Origin: an uncultured Pseudomonadota bacterium
GTDB lineage: Bacteria; Pseudomonadota; Alphaproteobacteria; UBA9219
Assembly (NCBI GenBank): GCA_903919315.1
Contig: CAIXHP010000055.1
Location: forward strand, 1 to 61,629
Direction of reading: 5' to 3'
Length of the DNA: 61,629 nucleotides
This document shows positions 14,309 through 14,581 of this stretch, one piece after another. Every line of letters begins with the position of its first letter. Positions within the stretch are counted from its first letter, which is position 1. The notes under the pieces are model-generated. The model made no database searches. It saw only the letters and a list, made by a program, of their open reading frames with translations, and was not told where the DNA came from. Both the position numbers and the translations under genes were made by a program.

Positions 14309-14581
14309 TCACGGGAAATTAACGGGTGGCGTGAGCGTGAGATTGAACCTAAGGATTGCCAACTGCAAATCACGAGGATACTTAGGATGCCAATCGACCT
14401 CTTCCATCGATCGGTACTTATCGACACCCTTCAGCGGCTCCCCGCTCGCGAGCCCCTTCAGCGCTCCACGAGCGAATATCTCGCACATCGCACGACTTCT
14501 TTCCTCTTCTCCATGCGTGAGCGTCCTTCTCTGGTGCATAAAGTCGGCAATAAACTGTACCCTGTCTTCGGAAACGCCCAC
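14309..14581 (-). CDS. hypothetical 90-residue protein between atpG and atpD
   Basis: A GTG start two bases after the atpG TAG stop opens a 90-codon frame that ends 46 bases before atpD. GGAGG lies ten bases before the GTG, inside the end of atpG. The predicted protein looks natural: an acidic helical N-terminal half ([17 protein letters not shown], then [17 protein letters not shown]) and a C-terminal [11 protein letters not shown] segment. There is no signal peptide or TM segment and no family I recognise. The position suggests cotranslation with the ATP synthase subunits. No function can be assigned. Confidence 0.45.

Follow-up and report, generated by a model that had tools for sequence, protein, structure and literature searches.

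A candidate orphan passenger gene between atpG and atpD, and recurrent occupation of ATP synthase operon junctions in Alphaproteobacteria

Is a small reading frame lodged between the genes for two subunits of ATP synthase a real gene and, if so, does it belong to the enzyme or only travel with it? The question is raised by the genome of an uncultured alphaproteobacterium, in which a 90-codon open reading frame (ORF) lies between atpG and atpD, on a 61,629-nucleotide stretch of DNA that is referred to here as the window. A preliminary description of this DNA took the ORF for a gene encoding an acidic, helical protein and, pointing to a further ORF after atpD, saw a pattern in the filling of both gaps of the atpGDC unit. 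Small accessory proteins of ATP synthase include AtpI, which is encoded together with the atp genes, and the zeta subunit, an inhibitor in alphaproteobacteria that represents a conserved family with members in far more than a single genome. Here, we report an analysis of the ORF and of the atp gene junctions across Alphaproteobacteria.

The insertion and its reading frame

The 321-bp gap between atpG and atpD in the window compares with a median of 41 bp among 220 alphaproteobacterial loci, 13 of which exceed 150 bp. In the remaining loci of the family, the distance is 5-46 bp, with the exception of locus L023, where it is 442 bp. Conserved sites are kept at both edges of the gap, namely, the end of atpG and the start of atpD (Table 1), and the extra DNA is an insertion relative to nearly all relatives. 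A long gap is no proof of a gene, because atpG-atpD gaps of 200-400 bp without an abutting ORF are present elsewhere, L153 and L235 being examples.

Table 1. Features of the window (first six rows) and of other loci (L numbers), with positions in the respective sequence
Locus	Feature	Coordinates	Strand	Remarks
Window	Orphan ORF, 90 codons, GTG start, TGA stop	14309..14581	minus	ORF under study
Window	GGAGG, candidate ribosome-binding site in the last atpG codons (Ala-Glu-Ala)	14592..14596	minus	10 nt before GTG
Window	atpG (gamma subunit) ORF	14584..15468	minus	Stop at the family-conserved site, IISGAEAV-stop
Window	Spacer of 46 nt, from ORF stop to atpD	14263..14308	minus	Own purine-rich leader AAAAAAAGGGACC
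Window	atpD (beta subunit), 473 aa, intact	12841..14262	minus	ATG at 14262, conserved methionine start
Window	169-aa frame in the 505-bp atpD-atpC gap (12336-12840)	12332..12841	minus	Judged noncoding-like
L023	atpG-atpD: 142-aa orphan			Abuts atpG stop, GGAGG in atpG tail
L040	atpG-atpD: 96 aa, hydrophobic N-terminus			Weak TPR matches, below Pfam cut-off; abuts atpG, GGAGG
L090	atpG-atpD: bPH_2 protein			Abuts atpG stop, GGAGG in atpG tail
L104 (Micavibrio)	atpG-atpD: GxxExxY / PD-(D/E)XK_3 protein	6965-7339		TIGR04256, E 1e-37
L126	atpG-atpD: 147-aa orphan			
L021	atpD-atpC: 122-aa orphan			
L040	atpD-atpC: 133-aa frame			
L080	atpD-atpC: NUDIX protein	8375-8812		Domain tested
L091	atpD-atpC: NUDIX-like ORF	8375-8821		Similar to L080 by eye
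L104	atpA-atpG: small unannotated family	5498-5941		
L114	atpA-atpG: small unannotated family	5176-5622, 5638-5988		
L075	atpA-atpG: perhaps the same family	5742-5999		
L274 (G000:C5)	nuo operon of the genome of the window: SBP_bac_3 and GIY-YIG inserts	5890-6783, 8702-8995, 10662-10982, 15045-15716, 18789-19682		

The layout given in the preliminary description is confirmed: the GTG of the 90-codon frame (14581-14579) stands two bases past the atpG TAG (14586-14584), with GGAGG ten bases before it. The end of atpG reads GCG GAG GCG GTT TAG, so that GGAGG falls inside these codons and results from the choice among synonymous codons for the conserved Ala-Glu-Ala. Because it lies within atpG codons, the motif is only partly independent evidence for the ORF.

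Several statistics bear on whether the frame is coding. An ORF of at least 90 aa that starts within the first 15 nt appeared in 0.9% of simulated 321-bp gaps, and the chance of one anywhere on the minus strand is 1.0-1.6%. The ORF resembles genes in its amino acid composition (p 0.010 and 0.018 under two nulls, with random frames of the same composition), and the codon score also exceeds that of random frames of the same composition (p 0.007 and 0.035, again under two nulls). Nevertheless, codon usage is atypical, falling below the 5th percentile of true-frame windows from the window's own genes, with GC by codon position of.59/.42/.60 versus about.63/.43/.75. Furthermore, the antisense strand over the same stretch contains two long open frames, of 93 and 114 aa; the former is codon-aligned with the ORF and has about the same codon score (-17.2 versus -18.8 bits for the ORF) but is worse on amino acids (-7.4 versus +2.0). 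The status of a real gene, as originally claimed, thus receives moderate and indirect support from position, ribosome-binding site, length and amino acid composition, with codon usage and the antisense frame pointing the other way.

The product itself was only partly described correctly. With 13 K+R and 13 D+E residues and a pI of 7.0, it is neutral rather than acidic. Its helical character may hold: the structure prediction that had been proposed for the product alone, performed with AlphaFold2 on the single sequence, yielded three helices at a pLDDT of only 51, which is not reliable and is too low for a fold search or for modeling a complex.

The gap after atpD is also unusually long, 505 bp versus a median of 28 bp, with 8 of 190 loci exceeding 150 bp (one of the eight, in L038, only seems long because bases of atpD are masked there). 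For the 169-aa frame in this gap, GC is nearly the same at all three codon positions (.56/.55/.56), and the codon and amino acid scores resemble those of random sequence. In the frames tested on both strands the gap has a noncoding look, and searches of it for Rfam families and for promoter- or terminator-like sites were negative. Given the random look of this second ORF, the argument from a pattern of two filled gaps fails in this genome.

The main competing explanation is that the 90-codon ORF is spurious, that is, a 321-bp noncoding spacer or leader left by an insertion or rearrangement that happens to be open. The atypical codon usage and the equally open antisense frame speak for such a sequence, and the neighboring long, noncoding-looking atpD-atpC gap, the atpG-atpD gaps without an abutting ORF in other genomes and the lack of relatives in any collection searched (see below) are on the same side. 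Against it, the length, the immediate start, the Shine-Dalgarno (SD) motif and the gene-like amino acid composition are jointly rare. Also against it, candidate RNA elements were rejected given a folding energy like that of shuffled sequences and no Rfam match, and no site resembling an internal promoter or terminator was found. We consider this explanation unlikely.

Homolog searches and the occupants of other junctions

Whole-genome searches, covering about 410 genomes in all, produced no credible match to the ORF product among 38 other genomes drawn from the family, order and class, including 22 other genomes of the family, or in a class sample of 385 genomes; the genome of the window was the only one of its genus among those covered. 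The best weak hit (29% over 52 aa within a 1039-aa frame of genome G024, E 0.0097) was taken as noise. Searches of GTDB contigs, viral contigs, phages and plasmids likewise uncovered no relative. There was no sequence match in Pfam, NCBIfam or the PDB, no nuclease domain (GIY-YIG, GxxExxY) was recognized by Pfam or NCBIfam, and PHROGs returned a single weak match to 15 residues of the protein (E 0.079). A repeat element or duplication was rejected as the source of the stretch: no second DNA copy is present elsewhere in the genome, and local repeats are unremarkable. Within the collections searched, the ORF accordingly has no detectable homologs outside its lineage, as in an ORFan. The preliminary description had named conservation in relatives as a check on its claim; the frame is not conserved, and the relatives with long gaps carry different ORFs. 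By this check, a role in F1 that is conserved is excluded, whereas a gene specific to the lineage is not.

What, then, occupies the atp junctions of other Alphaproteobacteria? In the atpG-atpD gap, we found orphans, a bPH_2 protein, a small protein with weak TPR matches and, in Micavibrio, a GxxExxY protein whose gene starts 47 nt past atpG with no GGAGG there (Table 1). The orphans in the gaps of other loci are putative genes. The NUDIX passenger between atpD and atpC is present in two related MAGs (L080 and L091) and is therefore common to at least two species. An all-against-all comparison of the other gap ORFs with the ORF in the window yielded no credible match. The occupied loci sit on scattered tree branches amid insert-free relatives, in a tree where several deep branches have low support. 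Given these scattered branches and the lack of a credible link to the ORF in the window, genes unrelated to one another have moved into the atp junctions time and again; a pattern of passengers inserted recurrently and independently into the gaps of the atp operon does exist in Alphaproteobacteria. Nor does the pattern of two filled gaps serve as an argument for a component of ATP synthase: relatives with long gaps hold unrelated proteins, and most relatives are insert-free. Literature searches on gene insertions into the alphaproteobacterial atp and nuo operons turned up nothing relevant.

The atpA-atpG junction is occupied as well, in L075, L104 and L114. Here, the occupants include members of a small unannotated family that are related at E 1e-15 and 1e-7 and come from Micavibrio and another alphaproteobacterial MAG; L114 maybe contains three successive copies. 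It is possible that this family is a conserved neighbor of ATP synthase in the lineage that contains Micavibrio.

Ribosomal and nuo regions served as operon controls in the genome of interest. The ribosomal protein operon is tight, with gaps of less than 60 bp between ribosomal protein genes from S10 to the end of L15. The nuo operon, in which gene names were assigned by position and recognizable sequence, contains three SBP_bac_3 solute-binding genes, after nuoC, nuoI and nuoL, and two single-domain GIY-YIG genes, after nuoE and nuoF; there are four GIY-YIG matches in the genome in all. Because the nuo operon also holds inserts, passengers in the energy operons of this organism are not limited to atp.

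The F1 operon of this genome is split (14584-55996). The atpH-atpA segment lies at 56584-54467 on the minus strand, followed by enolase (53038-54414), with atpG about 39 kb off; the interval between atpA and atpG includes pyruvate dehydrogenase-type genes, an SRP54-type gene, GMP synthase and others. The split appears to be family-wide, because atpA was not found beside atpG in the family loci examined. Just upstream of atpG (15558-17752), two tandem paralogous periplasmic binding proteins of the branched-chain amino acid type were identified by eye, as were permease-like genes further upstream.

The GGAGG motif could be compared across 221 distinct loci. It occurs in the atpG tail in 4 of 4 loci with an abutting ORF, defined as a gap ORF whose start is no more than about 10 nt from the atpG stop (the locus in the window, L023, L040 and L090), versus 8 of 207 short-gap loci (Fisher p 6e-6); this test is post hoc, rests on four loci that include the one under study and treats related species as independent. 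Among 197 insert-free loci, GGAGG was seen 6 times versus 40 expected from the loci's own codon usage. This depletion (L020-L269) suggests avoidance of SD-like sequence in the atpG tails of insert-free loci. For the four insert loci with GGAGG together, the probability under codon usage is 8e-4, and the codon usage of the genome of interest alone would produce the motif in about 20% of cases.

Single-domain nucleases in comparable gaps (GxxExxY between atpG and atpD in L104, GIY-YIG in the nuo operon of the host itself) bring to mind a further explanation, in which the 90-codon frame is what is left of a longer inserted gene, such as a mobile nuclease, a phage gene or another alien gene, now decaying. 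The GC content of the insert, 0.53 versus 0.59 in the surroundings, and the unknown affinity of the product are compatible with such an origin. However, the frame is clean and comes with a start, an SD-like site and a stop of its own; apart from the weak PHROGs match to 15 residues, the searches of Pfam, NCBIfam and the PDB gave no domain hit, and the genome contains no other DNA copy. We regard a decaying remnant as very unlikely.

Slimmer still is the chance that the ORF encodes a lineage-specific F1 accessory subunit, inhibitor or assembly factor, placed between gamma and beta so as to be assembled co-translationally: that location, the likely tight coupling to atpG translation and the low-confidence helical prediction fit the idea, but the ORF does not accompany the F1 genes in relatives, including the family and class genomes searched, the product resembles no known subunit or accessory protein in Pfam, NCBIfam or the PDB, and the atp gaps of other species hold unrelated proteins (secreted-looking TPR, nuclease, NUDIX, PH).

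A probable passenger gene in the F1 operon

We favor the interpretation, with a probability of about two-thirds, that the ORF is a translated, lineage-specific (orphan) passenger gene riding on the ATP synthase operon. Because unrelated small genes have been gained independently in the same operon, a passenger is the most likely status of the ORF, as opposed to a part of ATP synthase, and because TPR-like, nuclease-like, NUDIX and PH proteins are found at these junctions elsewhere, a position there is no sign of ATP synthase function. Under the passenger interpretation, a small gene would have been inserted, or would have grown, between atpG and atpD, and the operon mRNA would carry an extra frame, presumably co-transcribed with atpG. 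Ribosomes that finish atpG could then re-initiate 2 nt further on, at the GTG, aided by GGAGG, and atpD would initiate from its own leader, 46 nt past the stop of the ORF. Its product would probably be small, soluble and helical, with no function in F1.

The term ORFan, for lineage-specific genes of bacteria, and the uncertain origin of such genes have been discussed previously (PMC2395238). Like ORFans, the ORF described here is short, lacks homologs, is atypical in composition and resides within a native operon; unlike them, it is hosted by the near-universal F1 operon and its SD-like site is located within the codons of the upstream gene. It shares with the passengers of L023, L040 and L090 the junction, the abutment to atpG and the GGAGG in the atpG tail, whereas its protein sequence is unrelated to theirs and to that of the L104 passenger. 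With AtpI and zeta it has small size in common, but it differs from them in position, and it has no match in Pfam, NCBIfam or PDB sequences.

More interesting than a single gene are the repeated occupancy of atp junctions and the association of abutting ORFs with the SD motif. The F1 operon is usually taken as fixed and compact, but our survey indicates that, in Alphaproteobacteria, small genes of unrelated kinds have come to lie in its gaps again and again, and that a newcomer's candidate ribosome-binding site can be contained in the final codons of atpG. These observations caution against taking operon position as evidence of a new ATP synthase subunit. At the same time, the atp junctions form a natural, countable system in which to study how a new or alien gene comes to be expressed.
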